This document shows positions 27,172 through 34,465 of a stretch of DNA of 64,000 nucleotides, one piece after another (positions within the stretch are counted from its first letter, which is position 1; each line of letters begins with the position of its first letter). Below the pieces are notes generated by a model. The model ran no database searches. It was not told where the DNA came from and saw only the letters and a program-made list of their open reading frames with translations. Both the position numbers and the translations under genes were made by a program. Source of the DNA: Campylobacteraceae bacterium (lineage in GTDB: Bacteria; Campylobacterota; Campylobacteria; Campylobacterales; Arcobacteraceae); the NCBI GenBank assembly GCA_013215945.1, contig JABSOM010000015.1, forward strand, positions 1-64,000, in the 5' to 3' direction.

Positions 27172-28122
27172 ATGAGCAATAAAAAAATTGGTATTTGGAT
27201 GTATAAGAATTCAGGTGGTGAGTTAATTGAAAAAAAAATATGCAAAAAACTAAAAGACAGAAATATTGACACTTTAGTAAATTTGAACCTAAGAGAAGCA
27301 TTAGCCAAAAATGGACATATTTTACATAAAGGCATAAAACTAGATAAATTAGATTTATTTTTCTCTTACAATGCAAGTGAACAAACTCAATATCAAATGT
27401 ATTTATACAAAGCACTTAACAGAGTTATTCCTATGATTAATTCATTTGAAGCTTTTGAATTAAGTGAAGATAAATTTCATACTTCTTTTATACTAAGAAA
27501 AAATAAAATTAAAACTGCAGATTATAAATTATGCCATAGAGATGATACTCATCATTTAACCTCCATCATTAAACAATGGTCAAAAATGGTGTATAAACCA
27601 ACAGATGCTTGGGGAGGCAGAGGGCTTGCAAAAATTGATTCAAGTGAATCACTTGCTATGCTTATGCCTTTTTTAAATCAAATGGATTTAAGGTACTTTT
27701 ATGTTGAAAAATTTATTGATTATGATAATACAGATTATAGAATCGATATTGTTGATGGAAAATTTGTTGCTTGTTATGGACGAAAAGCCTCTTCTAATGA
27801 TTGGAGAACCAATATAAGCAGTGGTGGAAGTGTATTTTTAAGAGAAGCAAATGATGAAGTTGTTGAACTTGCTTTAAACGCGACAAAAGCAATAGGACTT
27901 GAGATAGCAGGTGTAGATATCATTTATGACAGAAAAAAAGAAGAGTATATTGTTTTAGAAATCAATGGAGTACCTGCATTTGCCACACCAGAACAAGAAA
28001 AAATGGGTCTAAATTTTAATGATAAAAAAATTGATTTAATTGTTGACTTAATTCTTAAAAAAGTTTCCAAGAAAAATAATGATTTAAATAAACCAATATA
28101 TAAAACACAAGTCGTAGCGTAA
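27172..28122 (+). CDS. RimK-like ATP-grasp ligase, copy 1
   Basis: 316 aa, soluble. An N-terminal pre-ATP-grasp domain covers about 1-100 and the ATP-grasp fold about 101-295. Visible ligands: Lys142 in MVYKPTD, a glycine loop GGRG (148-151), VEKFI (Glu179), Arg190/Asp192 in DYRIDIV, Arg212/Asn214 in WRTN, and Mg2+ ligands Asp249, Glu263 and Asn265 (LEINGVP). This is the RimK/LysX/glutathione-synthetase branch, whose members join an amino acid to a carboxylate through an acyl phosphate. The substrate is unknown. The protein is about three-quarters identical, without gaps over about 297 residues, to the one encoded at 29414. It has its own promoter and is separated from the following operon by 183 bases with a likely terminator. 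Confidence 0.87.
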   Translation: MSNKKIGIWMYKNSGGELIEKKICKKLKDRNIDTLVNLNLREALAKNGHILHKGIKLDKLDLFFSYNASEQTQYQMYLYKALNRVIPMINSFEAFELSEDKFHTSFILRKNKIKTADYKLCHRDDTHHLTSIIKQWSKMVYKPTDAWGGRGLAKIDSSESLAMLMPFLNQMDLRYFYVEKFIDYDNTDYRIDIVDGKFVACYGRKASSNDWRTNISSGGSVFLREANDEVVELALNATKAIGLEIAGVDIIYDRKKEEYIVLEINGVPAFATPEQEKMGLNFNDKKIDLIVDLILKKVSKKNNDLNKPIYKTQVVA

Positions 28123-28305
28123 AAACACCCAATAAAAACAATAAAAGAATATTGTTATTTTCATATACAAAGTTATAGCCAATTTTAAATATTAATATTT
28201 CTTTTTATTAAATAACTTAATTTATTACTTAAGAATAATATATTAAATTATATAGTAGTATTATATTTTAAACGTCAAAATGAATAATTGCAAGAAAGGA
28301 GAATC
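28123..28305 (+). other. Spacer between ATP-grasp copy 1 and the M20-led operon
   Basis: No gene. An imperfect stem, ACAAT (about 28139-28143) with ATTGT (about 28152-28156), followed by TATTTTC, may attenuate transcription after copy 1. Further on are several TATA-like hexamers (for example around 28250-28275), one of which probably starts transcription of the M20 gene. The rest is simple AT sequence. Confidence 0.35.
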
Positions 28306-29403
28306 ATGAAATATATACACGATCTTGAAAAAATTATAACTATCAATTCTTATACAAAAAATAAAGAAGGTGTTGATAAAGTAGGTGAAATAATGTCCTT
28401 ATGGCTTGAAGATATAGGTTTTGAAACTACAGTATATGAAAGAGACTTAATTGGTAATCATTTGTTGCATACAACTTCTAAAAAAGCCAATTTACCAAAG
28501 ATTCTGCTTTTAGGCCATAACGATACTGTTTTCCCGCCCAATACCTTTGAAGGTTTTAATAAAGATGAGCAATGGATATATGGGCCAGGAGTTTGTGATA
28601 TGAAAGGTGGAAATATAGTTGCTTTGCAAGCACTAAGAAATATCTATGAAACAAACAGAGCTATACACAATATTGATTTTTTACTGGTATCTGATGAAGA
28701 GTCAGGAAGTGATGATTCAAAAAATTTAAGCTCAAGTATTGCAAAAAACTACGATTACTGTTTTGTTTTTGAAGCTGCGGGAATTAAAGAAGAAGTAGTT
28801 AATGCACGTAAAGGTGTAGGTACGTTTACTATTGATATAGAAGGTTTGGCAGCACATGCTGGAAATAACTATGAAAAAGGAGTTGATGCCAATTTAGAGG
28901 CTTCTTATAAACTGCAAGAACTGGTAAAACTTACAAACCTAAAAAAAGGTACTACTTGTAATGTTGGAAAAATAAAAGGAGGTATTGGTGCCAATACTAT
29001 TTCTCCAAAAGCCAGCATTACTCTGGAGATAAGATACACCCAAAATGAAGAGAAGAACAGACTATTAAGTGCTTTACATGATATTTGTAATACTTCTTAT
29101 GTAGAAGGTTCAAAAGCAGTTTTAAGTGGCGCTATACAAAGAGATGTAATGGAGGCTAATGATAAACAAGAATTGTTAATTACTAAAATAGAGGCTATTT
29201 CTGGTGAAAAATTATTTTGCGAAAAAAGAGGTGGAGTAAGTGATGCAAATATAATTGCATCACAAGGGACTACTACCTTAGATGGTTTTGGCCCTTTTGG
29301 TGATGGGGACCATACAGTAAAAGAAAGAGCCTGTTTAAAATCATTTGAAAAACGAATAAATTTAATGACACAAATATTAAGTCATTTTCAAGTTAGTAAG
29401 TAA
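28306..29403 (+). CDS. M20-family metallopeptidase (carboxypeptidase G2/ArgE-like)
   Basis: 365 aa from the ATG at 28306, placed by the ribosome site AAAGGAG; an in-frame TTG six codons earlier covers that site. The two-zinc set appears intact: His71 (LGHNDT), Asp98 (VCDMKGG), general base Glu131 with Glu132 (SDEES), Glu156 (FEAAG) and the C-terminal His in GDGDHTVKE. The dimerisation-domain His184 (AAHAGN) is also present. Family members remove C-terminal glutamate or N-acyl groups from small substrates. No signal peptide, so it acts in the cytosol. It starts the tight operon with ATP-grasp copy 2, the ATP-grasp-HhH protein and the M14 enzyme, so it probably trims or deprotects a product of the ligases. 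That last point is inference. Confidence 0.88.
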   Translation: MKYIHDLEKIITINSYTKNKEGVDKVGEIMSLWLEDIGFETTVYERDLIGNHLLHTTSKKANLPKILLLGHNDTVFPPNTFEGFNKDEQWIYGPGVCDMKGGNIVALQALRNIYETNRAIHNIDFLLVSDEESGSDDSKNLSSSIAKNYDYCFVFEAAGIKEEVVNARKGVGTFTIDIEGLAAHAGNNYEKGVDANLEASYKLQELVKLTNLKKGTTCNVGKIKGGIGANTISPKASITLEIRYTQNEEKNRLLSALHDICNTSYVEGSKAVLSGAIQRDVMEANDKQELLITKIEAISGEKLFCEKRGGVSDANIIASQGTTTLDGFGPFGDGDHTVKERACLKSFEKRINLMTQILSHFQVSK

Positions 29404-29413
29404 AGGAATTATT

Positions 29414-30358
29414 ATGGACAGAAAAAAAATAGCTATGTGGATGTATTCTAATGGTGGTGGAGATATTATTCAAAATAAGCTTATAGATAAACTTAAAGAA
29501 AGATATATAGATGTTTTAAGCGATATTAATCTAAGAGAAGCCATTGCTAAGAATGGACATATAATCCATAATGGCATAAAACTTGATAAATTAGATTTAA
29601 TGTTTTCTTATAATGCGGGAGAGCAAACACAATATCAACTGTATATATATAAAGCACTAAACAATGTTATTCCAATGATTAATGAATACAATTCGTTTGA
29701 ACTAAGCGAAGATAAATTTCAAACCGCTTTTTTATTAAGACACAATGGGGTGCAAACAGCAGATTATAAACTTTGTCACAGAGATGATACCCATCATCTT
29801 AAATCTATTATGAAAAAATGGAATAAAATGGTGTATAAACCCACAGATGGATGGGGAGGTAGAGGACTTACTAAAATTGACTCACAAGAAACACTCGACA
29901 TGTTAATGCCTTTTTTAAATCAAATGGATTTACGCTATTTTTATGTTGAAAAATTTATTGATTATGATAATACGGATTATAGGGTAGATATTGTTAATGG
30001 TGAGTTTGTAGGGTGTTATGGAAGGAAAGCGGGTGGAAATGACTGGAGAACCAATATTACAAGTGGAGGAAGTGTATTTAATAGAGAAGCAAATGATGAG
30101 GTAGTAGCTTTGGCTAAAAAAGCTACTTTGGTTACAGGCTTAGATATTGCAGGTGTTGATATTATTTATGACAGAGAAAAAGAAGAATATATTGTGTTAG
30201 AAGTCAATGGTATTCCTGCTTTTGCTACACCTGAGCAAGAAAAAATGGGTTTAAATTTTAATGACAAAAAAATTGATTTAATAGTTGATTTAATTGAGAA
30301 AAAAACAATTAAAGTTGAAAAAGAACGAAGAAAAAGAAAAAATAGAAGATTAAAATAA
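29414..30358 (+). CDS. RimK-like ATP-grasp ligase, copy 2, with basic tail
   Basis: 314 aa, co-linear with copy 1: Lys142, GGRG 148-151, Glu179, Arg190/Asp192, Asp249, Glu263 and Asn265 are all conserved, and long stretches such as FELSEDKF, DYKLCHRDDTHHL and PFLNQMDLRYFYVEKFIDYD are identical. Differences cluster in the first 40 residues and at positions around 92-94, 207-208 and 236-241. The C-terminus differs completely: residues about 300-314 form a strongly basic tail (ERRKRKNRRLK). It lies 10 bases after the M20 stop with an AAAGGA site. The pair arose by duplication and the copies may use different acceptors. Confidence 0.87.
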   Translation: MDRKKIAMWMYSNGGGDIIQNKLIDKLKERYIDVLSDINLREAIAKNGHIIHNGIKLDKLDLMFSYNAGEQTQYQLYIYKALNNVIPMINEYNSFELSEDKFQTAFLLRHNGVQTADYKLCHRDDTHHLKSIMKKWNKMVYKPTDGWGGRGLTKIDSQETLDMLMPFLNQMDLRYFYVEKFIDYDNTDYRVDIVNGEFVGCYGRKAGGNDWRTNITSGGSVFNREANDEVVALAKKATLVTGLDIAGVDIIYDREKEEYIVLEVNGIPAFATPEQEKMGLNFNDKKIDLIVDLIEKKTIKVEKERRKRKNRRLK

Positions 30359-30364
30359 GGAAAA

Positions 30365-31876
30365 ATGATGAAAAAGTTACCAACAATAGGTTTTTTATAT
30401 ATGGATTACGTGCTAAGATTTTTTGATTATTCAAATTTTAAGGCTTGGCCTGAAAAAATTGAAGAAGTTACCTATCATTGGAAAAATGACAAAAAACGTT
30501 TCATTAAAGAAGTGAAAAGAAAGAAAATTAATATTTTAATTGGGAATATTCCCGCAACTGCCTACGATACTTTTGTTCAAATAGCCAAAGAATTGTCAGA
30601 TGTGCGTTTTGTTCCCTCTTTAGAAACACAGTTTCCTAATAAATCAAAAGAGAATGTAACGTTATTTTGTAAAAAGTACGATTTAGCTATTCCAAAAACA
30701 GAAATCTTTTATGATGAAAAAAAAGCTTTTGAGTATTTTAGAAAAAGTGCAACATATCCTCAGATAATAAAAAAATCCTATGGCCCTTCAAATTATGGAG
30801 GTTATTTTGTACATAAAGTGAATAATGTAAAAGAAGCTCTTTCTTTAGTTAAAGAAAAAAAATACTCTCCTGTTTATACGCAGAATGCTATTGATTTAAA
30901 GTACTCTGGAGATTTAAGAATAATGTTAATTGGACATAAGCCTGTTTGTGCTTTTTGGAGATTTTCAGGAGAAGGAGAATGGATAACCAACACTTCTCAA
31001 GGGGGTTCAATGTCTTATGAAAATGTTCCCATGTCTTCACTTGAATTAGCCGTTAAAGCATCAAAAGCTGCAAAAGCGGAGTATTGGGCTTGTGATATTG
31101 CAATTGATGCTAAAACAGATGAACCATATATTTTAGAATGCGCTACTGCTTTTGCTGCTTTTCCTTATATTAGAGATTGGATTTGTCAATATTTAATGTG
31201 GGATTTTTCACAAGGAAAATTTCCTAAACCTCATGTGCCTTTATTTTCTTGGGAAGAACTTGGCAAGATAAATCCTGATTTATTAAGAACTATGAGACAT
31301 ATAGGATTTTCTGCTTATAAACCATCTGCTGATGGAGAATGGTATATAAATGACAAAGAAGACAATTTCGACATGGAACGAACGCTTGAAAGCGTAGAAA
31401 GTGATCTTCCTGCTTCTATTAAACCAGAAGATTTGCCAATTGCCAAGGAACTGCTAAAAAATACAAAAGAATCAAAAGAAGTGTTTTTCACTAAAATTAA
31501 TTTAAATACAGCAAACTTGACAGATATCATGACACTTTATGCAATGGAAGAAGATTTAGCAATAGAAATTTTGGAATATCAAAAAGACAATATTATTACT
31601 GATCCTTCTGATTTACTTGATTTAGAAGCTATTGATGCACAATTGATTTCTTCTTGGAATGATGATTTTGAAGATATGCGCTTTAATTTAAATGATGCCA
31701 GTAAAAAAACCTTGACAAAAATCAAAGGTATTGGCTCAAAATTGGCAGCTATAATTTTAAATGAAAAAGAAAAGTTAGGTAAGTTTACTTCACTTGATGA
31801 TCTTAAACATATTGCGGGAATTGGAAAAAATAAATTTTCGGAACTTAAATCAAGATTTAAGATAGAGGATAAATAA
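30365..31876 (+). CDS. ATP-grasp enzyme fused to C-terminal ComEA-type helix-hairpin-helix repeats
   Basis: 503 aa. Residues about 1-95 are a divergent pre-ATP-grasp domain. Residues 96-290 are ATP-grasp with Lys136/Lys137 (IIKKSYG), SNYGGYF, Asp183/Arg185 (GDLRIML), Asn209 (NTSQGG) and metal ligands Asp244 and Glu258; the usual third ligand Asn is replaced (LECATA). A linker is followed by two ComEA-like units, 378-432 (INLNTANLTDIM, DPSDLLDL) and 439-500 (FNLNDASKKTLTKIKGIGSKLAAII, IAGIGKNKFSELK). Such units bind double-stranded DNA in ComEA and UvrC but also occur in protein-binding roles. No membrane segment. The stop is directly followed by the M14 start codon. I know of no standard family with this fusion. 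Confidence 0.82.
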   Translation: MMKKLPTIGFLYMDYVLRFFDYSNFKAWPEKIEEVTYHWKNDKKRFIKEVKRKKINILIGNIPATAYDTFVQIAKELSDVRFVPSLETQFPNKSKENVTLFCKKYDLAIPKTEIFYDEKKAFEYFRKSATYPQIIKKSYGPSNYGGYFVHKVNNVKEALSLVKEKKYSPVYTQNAIDLKYSGDLRIMLIGHKPVCAFWRFSGEGEWITNTSQGGSMSYENVPMSSLELAVKASKAAKAEYWACDIAIDAKTDEPYILECATAFAAFPYIRDWICQYLMWDFSQGKFPKPHVPLFSWEELGKINPDLLRTMRHIGFSAYKPSADGEWYINDKEDNFDMERTLESVESDLPASIKPEDLPIAKELLKNTKESKEVFFTKINLNTANLTDIMTLYAMEEDLAIEILEYQKDNIITDPSDLLDLEAIDAQLISSWNDDFEDMRFNLNDASKKTLTKIKGIGSKLAAIILNEKEKLGKFTSLDDLKHIAGIGKNKFSELKSRFKIEDK

Positions 31877-34465
31877 TTGAAACAACTTTATAGATCATAT
31901 GCTCAATCCACTGAGATATTTACAAAGTATGCAAAAGATTATGAAAAACACTTTACACTTGAAACTATCGGAAAAACATGGGAAAAAAGAGATATTAATT
32001 TAATTACCATATCAAGCGATATAAAAAATGCGCATAAAAAACCTGCTCTGTTTTTCACAGGAACTATTCATGCAAGAGAGTGGGTAGGACATGAATTAGC
32101 AATTGAGTTTACTAAATACATCCTAGAAAACTTAGAACATGATTTAATGCTGCAAGAATATTTAGAGAAAGCAACTATTTATATGGTTCCTTGTGCAAAT
32201 CCTGATGGTTATGAATATTCTAGAAATCATTTTTCTTTTTGGAGAAAAAACAGAAGAGTTAATGCTGATGGAACTTTTGGTGTGGATTTAAACAGAAATT
32301 TTCCCATTGGTTTTATTTCCAGTACAAAAACGAACTCCAATATTTATGGAGGTCCTAATCCTTTCTCTGAACCCGAATCGCAAGCCTTAAGAGACTTTGT
32401 TTTAGCACATAAGAATATAACCATTGCGCTTGATTACCATTCCCAAGGAAATGTTTTTTTCCCTGCTCATGATTTTAGGCATGAAGATACTCTAGATACA
32501 AGTGATATGAATATATTATGTGCAAATATGGCTGAAGAGATTAGAAAAATATCTGGCAGAGAATATGGGATTCATCAAGGAAAACCACCTGCTAAACTAA
32601 TTTCTGGAAGTGGAAGAGAATTTTATTATTCAAAAGGTATTATTTCAAGTGTGGTAGAAGTAGGAACACGAAATATAAGCGATTATATGGAAGATATGAA
32701 CGAAAACTTAAGAGAACATATTCCCGCATTATTAAGTGCGGTAAAAGAAGTGCCTAATTATAAAAAAGATTCGAATGTACTTAGAGTTAAAAGTTTTGAA
32801 GTAAGTGATATTGGATCTTCTCATGTTGATTTAATCTGGGAATATAAAAAAGATGAGAACATATATTTTGAAGTGTATAGAAGCAATGAAAATAAAAAGT
32901 TTTGTATGGATGCTAACTTACTTGCACAAACACAAAGCCATAGTTTTAGCGATATAAATCTGGAATCAAACAAAGATTATTTTTACAATATTCGTGCAGT
33001 AAACAAAAAAACAAAAGTTAAATCACCTTTTTTCCCTCAAATTAGAGTAAAAACTTCTTTGGAATTTGATGAGTTTTCGAGAACTTATTACGCCAGCGCA
33101 GCAACAACAGGTTATGTATCTGAAAACTTAAAAAACAATGACAAACACTTTGGTATTAATTCCTTATTTGTTGGTATTGATGAGAATAAAGGCATATCTT
33201 ATGCTCTAATTACTATTAATGTTAAAACATTGGCAGCTAATGCCATTATTAAATCGGCTAGTTTTAATCTTTATCCTATTAATAGAGTTTCTACTACTAT
33301 TGAAAAATATGGTGAATGGAATGTAGGAATTGTTAATCAAGATACTATGGGTGATATTACTAATTTTGATGATGTTAATGATATGGAAATTATATCTTAT
33401 ATTGGTCAAGCTACACAATCTTCCCAATTAACGCAAGGTATATGGAGAAGCTGGCACTTGTCCGGAATTGAGTGCCTTGCTTTGAAAAAATTTATAAAAA
33501 ATGATCAAATTGTATTACGAGTAGAAGGTCCCAAAGAGCTTAAAATTGCACGAAACAAACAAATGATGCAATGGGATATTGGCTATGGGAAATTTGGTTT
33601 TGGATTAACATACAGACCAAGAATAGAACTTACCTATCATGTAGATACTAATATTACTACGCTGTATCCAAAAGAAGTACATACGATATCTAATAAAAGT
33701 ATTTTAAATAATGTTGCCACCTGTGGTTTTGATGATCAAGGTAAAAAGATATATTCATTTTTTGAATTTAATTTATCTTCTTTGCCTGCTTATGATTATA
33801 CAATGATTACAAAGGCTTATTTTGAATTAAATTCAAAAGCAATTTACATAAAAGACGATATTCGCTTTCATTTAGAATTTATAGATGAAAATACAGGTAA
33901 AAGTTATAAATCAATTAGTAAGAGAGAAATTATTCAAAACATTGGTTACGATGTTAGTGCAAATGAACTCAAAAACAATCAAACTCAGTATTTTATGTTT
34001 GATTCTTTTGCACAAATAGAACTTAATAAAAAATTAAAAAACAAAGTAGATGTCTCTTTTATTTTAAAAGCCACTTCTTCAAAAAAGTTTATTAAAAACA
34101 AAACAATTTCATGGGAACTTTTAAACAATGATTTAGCACCCAAACTTATTATTGAACATATTACAAAAAGAAGATTTCCTATAAAAGAAGTAGAAAATGC
34201 AAAAATAATTAATGATAACGGAAAAGTGAAGATTATTTGGGAAAATCCAAAAGATAAAGAACTAAAAGGAGTTTTAGTTATAAAGAATCCATACAGAGCA
34301 CCCCTGTCACAGGTTGATGGACAAAAACTTTATGCAGGAAATGACGAGTTTACTTATGATGAGTTTGGTTCAAAGGATATTTCAAAATACTATGCTATTT
34401 TTACATATGATGATGTACCCAACTATTCAAAACCTGTTTTTATAAGATACGAAGCAAAAAAATAA
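31877..34465 (+). CDS. M14 zinc carboxypeptidase with FN3 and DNRLRE-like domains
   Basis: 862 aa from a TTG start that abuts the upstream stop; GAGGAT is the ribosome site. Residues about 1-292 are an M14 (carboxypeptidase A-like) domain: zinc ligands His65 and Glu68 (HARE) and His188 (YHSQ), substrate-binding Arg127, Asn139/Arg140 (DLNRNF) and catalytic Glu261 (VVEVGT). After it come an FN3-like domain (about 305-395), two beta-rich DNRLRE-like segments (about 400-590 and 600-780) and a C-terminal FN3-like piece. Those accessory domains normally sit on secreted proteins, yet there is no signal peptide, matching the cytosolic ligases. The expected activity is removal of C-terminal amino acids; the accessory domains may hold the target. 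A terminator follows. Confidence 0.85.
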   Translation: MKQLYRSYAQSTEIFTKYAKDYEKHFTLETIGKTWEKRDINLITISSDIKNAHKKPALFFTGTIHAREWVGHELAIEFTKYILENLEHDLMLQEYLEKATIYMVPCANPDGYEYSRNHFSFWRKNRRVNADGTFGVDLNRNFPIGFISSTKTNSNIYGGPNPFSEPESQALRDFVLAHKNITIALDYHSQGNVFFPAHDFRHEDTLDTSDMNILCANMAEEIRKISGREYGIHQGKPPAKLISGSGREFYYSKGIISSVVEVGTRNISDYMEDMNENLREHIPALLSAVKEVPNYKKDSNVLRVKSFEVSDIGSSHVDLIWEYKKDENIYFEVYRSNENKKFCMDANLLAQTQSHSFSDINLESNKDYFYNIRAVNKKTKVKSPFFPQIRVKTSLEFDEFSRTYYASAATTGYVSENLKNNDKHFGINSLFVGIDENKGISYALITINVKTLAANAIIKSASFNLYPINRVSTTIEKYGEWNVGIVNQDTMGDITNFDDVNDMEIISYIGQATQSSQLTQGIWRSWHLSGIECLALKKFIKNDQIVLRVEGPKELKIARNKQMMQWDIGYGKFGFGLTYRPRIELTYHVDTNITTLYPKEVHTISNKSILNNVATCGFDDQGKKIYSFFEFNLSSLPAYDYTMITKAYFELNSKAIYIKDDIRFHLEFIDENTGKSYKSISKREIIQNIGYDVSANELKNNQTQYFMFDSFAQIELNKKLKNKVDVSFILKATSSKKFIKNKTISWELLNNDLAPKLIIEHITKRRFPIKEVENAKIINDNGKVKIIWENPKDKELKGVLVIKNPYRAPLSQVDGQKLYAGNDEFTYDEFGSKDISKYYAIFTYDDVPNYSKPVFIRYEAKK

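Follow-up and report, generated by a model that had tools for sequence, protein, structure and literature searches.

The window analyzed here, a stretch of 64,000 nucleotides from a Campylobacteraceae bacterium, carries on its forward strand five genes in the order RimK-like ligase copy 1 (positions 27172..28122, 316 aa), M20 peptidase (28306..29403, 365 aa; a TTG start at 28288 is possible too), RimK-like ligase copy 2 (29414..30358, 314 aa), an ATP-grasp ligase with a helix-hairpin-helix (HhH) tail (30365..31876, 503 aa), and an M14 zinc carboxypeptidase (31877..34465, 862 aa, with the catalytic domain at about 31877-32800). The genes from M20 to M14 are separated by 10, 6, and 0 nt and make up a four-gene cassette. 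Copy 1, which is 74% identical to copy 2 and located between argG and the M20 gene, is an additional copy that few relatives have; second RimK-like genes also occur at the loci L001, L016, and L036. The names rplS, trmD, rimM, argG, efp, and carbonic-anhydrase-like were assigned by reading the translations. Both RimK copies retain the full Asp/Glu/Asn metal triad, and copy 2, the cassette member, has a canonical metal site. Among the NCBIfam models, the RimK-like ligases scored best with MptN, an enzyme for a small cofactor. The basic tail that the initial annotation had pointed out at the end of copy 2 is present, but only 4 of 66 RimK-like ligases (window included) possess one, defined as a charge of at least +6 in the last 15 aa.

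The fused ligase is encoded by an uninterrupted open reading frame. Its RimK-like ATP-grasp region (30674..31141, plus strand) comprises residues 104-259, with D244, E258, and the start of an ECATAF motif. This region matched PF08443 (RimK) with an E value of 2.2e-13 and 50.7 bits, compared to a Pfam cut-off of 21, and the same model was found with an E value of 0.01 or below in 40 of 40 relatives. The tail matched HHH_3 (PF12836) in two stretches with an E value of 6.1e-22, the best one at residues 440-498, and its 77.9 bits versus a cut-off of 27 identified it as a ComEA-type HhH module. The profile search placed both domains on one reading frame of 503 aa, as had been proposed; the view that this combination of a ligase with an HhH module is unusual is supported as well. 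The protein remained below the cut-offs of the equivalog models for RimK S6 ligases, TIGR00768 (59.4 versus 143.4 bits) and NF007764 (19.1 versus 331 bits). In the model of the whole protein, with a mean pLDDT of 76.7, the tail at about residues 381-500 was predicted confidently and residues 295-338 and 363-374 poorly. A structure search with the catalytic fold returned as closest solved structures ArgX with LysW, LysX, and RimK, enzymes whose substrates are protein carriers or S6. An alignment of 40 relatives contained more than 100 invariant columns, all of them within residues 53-323, and the nucleotide loop, D244, and E258 were invariant.

The Asp/Glu/Asn metal triad of the fused ligase is incomplete, with D244 and E258 present and the Asn absent. 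In 81 of 81 sequences, comprising the window copy and the best 80 of 139 relatives, ECATAF was invariant and the Asn was missing. The initial annotation had described the Asn as replaced and had considered a shifted function of the catalytic part. Its absence is confirmed, but the profile alignment shows a two-residue gap at this position and not a clean substitution, so that the Asn may either have been replaced or fall within this gap. The loss is indeed invariant in the family; since the nucleotide loop and the Asp and Glu positions are also invariant, an active enzyme nevertheless appears more likely than a dead one. PurK also does without the Asn at this metal site, yet is active.

The tail is composed of two units. 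HhH unit 1 (31496..31672, plus strand, residues 378-436) is degenerate, acidic, and free of GIG, and HhH unit 2 (31676..31864, plus strand, residues 438-500) is of the canonical ComEA type, basic, and equipped with two GIG hairpins. The full-length comE model TIGR01259 was not reached (56.2 versus 152.35 bits, tail only). An AlphaFold model of the isolated tail had a pLDDT of 92.6, and a PDB fold search with it listed ComEA (8dss) at the top (probability 1.00, Foldseek E value 2.6e-3), followed by Tex and PsbU, with weak E values because the HhH domain is short. A PsbU model matched 12 of 40 relatives of the fused ligase. Two ComEA-type units are present as predicted, with INLNTA at residues 378-383 and FNLNDAS at residues 440-446. 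The GIG hairpins expected in both units were located in unit 2 (residues 455-457 and 485-487); in unit 1 of the window copy, AME and AID stand at the respective positions, and GIG was found in unit 1 in 0 of 67 copies from the window and the best 80 of 139 relatives. The median net charge of unit 1 per 60 aa was −12.4 in two-unit tails and −6.1 when it was the only unit. Unit 2 contained a GIG-type hairpin in 36 of 36 cases at a charge of +4.5 per 60 aa. Tails of a third type, HHH_5, were slightly basic (+1.9) and had one hairpin in 11 of 11 cases. Where it is present, the basic unit 2 with its GIG hairpins could still bind DNA or RNA; because unit 1 is acidic and free of GIG, nucleic acid binding is possible in some lineages and not family-wide. 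A nucleic acid association of the complex, which had been suggested for this locus, is not supported as a general property, since 31 relatives possess only unit 1.

The closest solved relative of the M20 peptidase is carboxypeptidase G2. The M14 protein aligned with carboxypeptidases A and T and was by sequence most like CPA4 and CPT. The Arg of its GSGRE motif, Arg247, aligned with the CPA4 residue equivalent to position 255 of carboxypeptidase A, with the numbering counted along the CPA sequence. This residue was Arg in 65 of 66 proteins and Lys in the remaining one, based on an alignment that ends just past that position and is one residue short ahead of the catalytic Glu. A short-fragment PDB search for an alignment of M14 with carboxypeptidase O (CPO) gave nothing useful. 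Arg255 of CPO confers specificity for acidic C-terminal residues, according to PMC9925722. Judged by these comparisons, M20 and M14 would point to C-terminal glutamate. The M14 protein, with its catalytic domain starting from residue 1, also contains Fn3- and DNRLRE-like stretches, and no obvious signal peptide was seen on M14 in the relatives. Such stretches are usually extracellular and unusual for a cytoplasmic enzyme.

Of the best 80 of 139 relative loci, 44 were flanked by at least 3 kb on either side, and in 38 of these the M20, RimK-like, and M14 genes were located at most four genes away from the ligase gene. The other six were L027, L078, and L080, where the ligase gene stands alone, L058, with a disrupted cassette, and L044 and L063, where the missing genes are actually present and had been miscalled. 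At L058 (5210-13922), the M20, RimK-like, and M14 genes are in fragments, with transposase-like genes situated between the RimK-like and the ligase gene. The list of neighbors covered 78 of the 80 loci, with L038 and L041 dropped by the simple gene caller. Within these 78, rplS was immediately upstream of the cassette in 16 loci, and argG adjoined the cassette in Arcobacteraceae-type loci, 14 times directly and 4 times with intervening genes. Seven named stand-alone HHH_5 forms of the ligase had efp upstream, one of them with an intervening gene. The rplS and efp neighbors hint at translation; lineage synteny accounts for them equally well. At L109 (G256:C7:94000-104000), a lone M14 gene occupies the interval from argG to the carbonic-anhydrase-like gene, which gives the impression that the rest of the cassette was lost.

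The fusion occurs well beyond a single genome. A scan of named genomes yielded 139 relative loci, the best 80 of which came mostly from Campylobacterota; also among these 80 were Thiomicrorhabdus (L065), two Desulfuromusa bins, and one Desulfuromonadales bin, and the latter three may contain misassigned contigs. An orphan fusion or an assembly artifact was rejected on the basis of these 80 loci and the copies in whole genomes. In 298 Campylobacterota genomes, the ATP-grasp/HhH ligase and M14 were each found in 32 and the RimK-like subfamily was found in 31; all three were present in 30, one or two in 4, and none in 264. Consequently, 30 of the 34 genomes with any of the three genes carry all of them, counts that include related and thus nonindependent genomes. 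The remaining four were G037 with a ligase fragment containing stops, G256 with M14 only, G218 with ligase and M14, and G105 with the RimK-like gene (and M20) on a short contig. Each of the three genes was found in 16 of 59 Campylobacterota genera. Outside this phylum, in Photobacterium sp. DA100, a divergent M20 gene lies next to those for the RimK-like ligase, an ATP-grasp ligase with an HHH_5-like tail, and M14; this whole cassette resides on a 2.1-Mb replicon, the sole plasmid record matched. A wide spread in Gammaproteobacteria was rejected because, among 369 genomes, only the centre genome itself was found. With no relative of the whole fused protein or of the tail alone in viral contigs, and with one plasmid record, an origin from phages or plasmids was also rejected. 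The fused ligase had no match among the PHROGs phage families, and PADLOC identified no defense system.

All 81 sequences surveyed for their tail, again the window copy and the best 80 of 139 relatives, share the catalytic domain. Both HhH units are present in 36 of them (window copy included), unit 1 only in 31, plus L032, which the script overlooked, and an HHH_5-type tail in 11, with Photobacterium as a 12th case; L027 has a canonical unit after a lysine-rich linker, and L066 stops before the tail. The unit-1-only tails matched HHH_3 at an E value of 0.5 or below in 4 of 8 cases, all below the curated cut-off; it is mainly their alignment with the first unit of two-unit tails that identifies them as HhH. 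The HHH_5 match of L070 (3.8e-11) was clear, that of L079 (1.5e-4) weaker. In a tree, the HHH_5-tailed forms were a single clade with a support of 100/100, the two-unit tails fell into two separate parts, and L027 was nested among the unit-1-only forms, indicating repeated loss or replacement of units. The number of changes is approximate because the tail labels of the tree are imperfect, with the two-unit L041 labeled as one-unit and L001 and L032 unlabeled.

The rplS-side cassette of G009 and G129 consists of M20, RimK-like, and M14 genes; the ligase gene is gone, and the RimK-like and M14 genes are about 35 nt apart. Elsewhere in these genomes, an HHH_5-tailed ligase gene is located about 30 nt past efp. 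This argues for a ligase that is needed, with a tail and a position that can be changed. Two assemblies, paired by record names, contain two differently tailed ligases each (L047/L078 and L050/L027). Tail exchange and relocation may be read as one catalytic part with a changing aim. At L074 (8385-14541), an HHH_5-tailed cassette occupies the slot between argG and the carbonic-anhydrase-like gene that is used by the two-unit cassettes of Arcobacteraceae. At L016 (14796-16162), the second RimK-like gene is followed by a gene for a free-standing 145-aa protein made of two HhH units with no ligase domain.

The cassette can be compared with several known systems. In bacteria, a ligase/protease pair controls polyglutamylation of RpsF, with the protease removing glutamate, as described in PMC11957791; the likeness to this RimK/RimABK system of Pseudomonas and Escherichia coli is that of a RimK-type ATP-grasp ligase acting against a glutamate-removing protease. 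The cassette differs by two ligases, the HhH tail, and metallo-carboxypeptidases in place of the retropepsin-like RimB. PF05618, the family of RimB, had no match in the genome of the window. S6 of this genome ends in LKKAAK and has no acidic tail, which makes the E. coli target unlikely, and S6 is not favored as a target. The LysX/ArgX systems with LysW share the nearest solved fold with the catalytic part and are also known to have an M20 hydrolase partner, but the fused ligase is far below the LysX cut-off. The gaps of the cassette contain no small carrier gene, and a degenerate DNA pattern for a C-terminal EDWGE followed by a stop, the motif of a LysW-like carrier, gave no match in the genome of the window. 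ComEA is similar by the HHH_3 match and the nearest fold of the tail, but the tail here is fused to a ligase, has a degenerate unit 1, and lacks a membrane or uptake context. The tubulin TTLL ligases with their CCP deglutamylases, and human CPO, provide the parallel of an ATP-grasp writer, an M14 eraser, and a basic position 255, but the cassette is bacterial, its M14 is closest to CPA4 and CPT, and no tubulin is involved. PsbU of photosystem II, listed by the fold search, is an HhH domain that does not serve to bind DNA, but it is lumenal, stands alone, and belongs to an unrelated context. The best-supported reading, a cassette that writes and erases glutamate with an HhH-docked ligase, would work like RimBK or TTLL/CCP but lacks defining features of the known systems, with no PF05618 protein, no acidic S6 end, and no LysW-like end. 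No description of the cassette was found in the open-access papers searched, which does not prove its absence from the wider literature; a 2009 survey of ATP-grasp amidoligases may mention part of it.

The fusion, the cassette, the co-occurrence of its genes, the exchange of tails, and the relocation can be combined into a tentative explanation, to which we assign a little less than an even chance: the four-gene cassette of marine Campylobacterota would be a writer and eraser of glutamate with the HhH tail as a docking module. Judged from their families, the RimK-like and the ATP-grasp/HhH ligases would activate a carboxylate with ATP to form amide bonds to amino acids, the acceptor being a macromolecule and the added residue glutamate or another acidic amino acid. 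M20 and M14 would take off C-terminal acidic residues again, as suggested by their nearest relatives and the basic residue at position 255 of M14. The tail would bring the ligase together with its acceptor or with a partner. Most likely, the degenerate unit 1 is a protein-binding one, like PsbU, and a canonical unit 2 or an HHH_5 tail may add or change the target. The glutamate reading is preferred because of the retention of the cassette, the co-occurrence, the relocated tail, the ArgX/LysX/RimK fold, the similarity of M20 to carboxypeptidase G2, and the basic M14 residue, and because PMC11957791 describes a comparable ligase/protease pair. The MptN scores, the nonacidic end of S6, the Fn3- and DNRLRE-like stretches of M14, the weak HhH matches of the unit-1-only tails, and the edge of the alignment at position 255 were counted against it. 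A more far-reaching version, in which RimK-like ligase, M20, and M14 form a glutamylation engine served by an ATP-grasp subunit and retargeted by evolutionary swaps of the HhH tail of this subunit, is doubtful; the two differently tailed subunits in each of two assemblies indicate that one cell may serve two targets.

The cassette may instead serve a small-molecule pathway, in which the ligases build a peptide-like cofactor, an osmolyte, or a storage peptide, M20 and M14 recycle it, and the tail only holds the enzymes together. The similarity of the RimK-like ligases to MptN, the action of carboxypeptidase G2 on folates, and the release of single amino acids by both M20 and M14 agree with such a pathway, which we regard as possible but somewhat doubtful, because a tail for docking to nucleic acids or proteins would be odd on a soluble metabolite enzyme, the exchange of tails and the relocation to the efp side suggest changing targets, and the structural neighbors of the fused ligase use protein acceptors. 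A tail that binds DNA or RNA and thereby holds the ligase on the nucleoid, the ribosome, or tRNA would agree with the basic unit 2 and its GIG hairpins, the slightly basic HHH_5 tails with their single hairpin, and the positions next to rplS and efp. This is unlikely in view of the acidic unit 1, which lacks the hairpins in all copies and is the sole unit in 31 relatives, and the adjacency to rplS and efp may be plain lineage synteny.

A role of the ATP-grasp/HhH protein as an inactive or regulatory subunit, which recruits the canonical RimK-like ligase, would explain the family-wide absence of the Asn and the free-standing HhH pair behind the second RimK-like gene at L016. The extreme conservation of the catalytic domain, including nucleotide loop, D244, and E258, and the example of PurK make this quite improbable. 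A self-carrier with the C terminus of the tail as acceptor, considered because many Arcobacter copies end in GE, was rejected since only 20 of 78 copies end in E or D and 36 of 78 in K.

If the glutamate writer-eraser reading is true, Campylobacterota and a few other bacteria would have a reversible protein glutamylation that is separate from RimK and S6, and its construction would resemble that of the TTLL/CCP pair of eukaryotes. With G009 and G129, where the gene was naturally deleted and relocated, the role of the HhH tail becomes open to a direct test.
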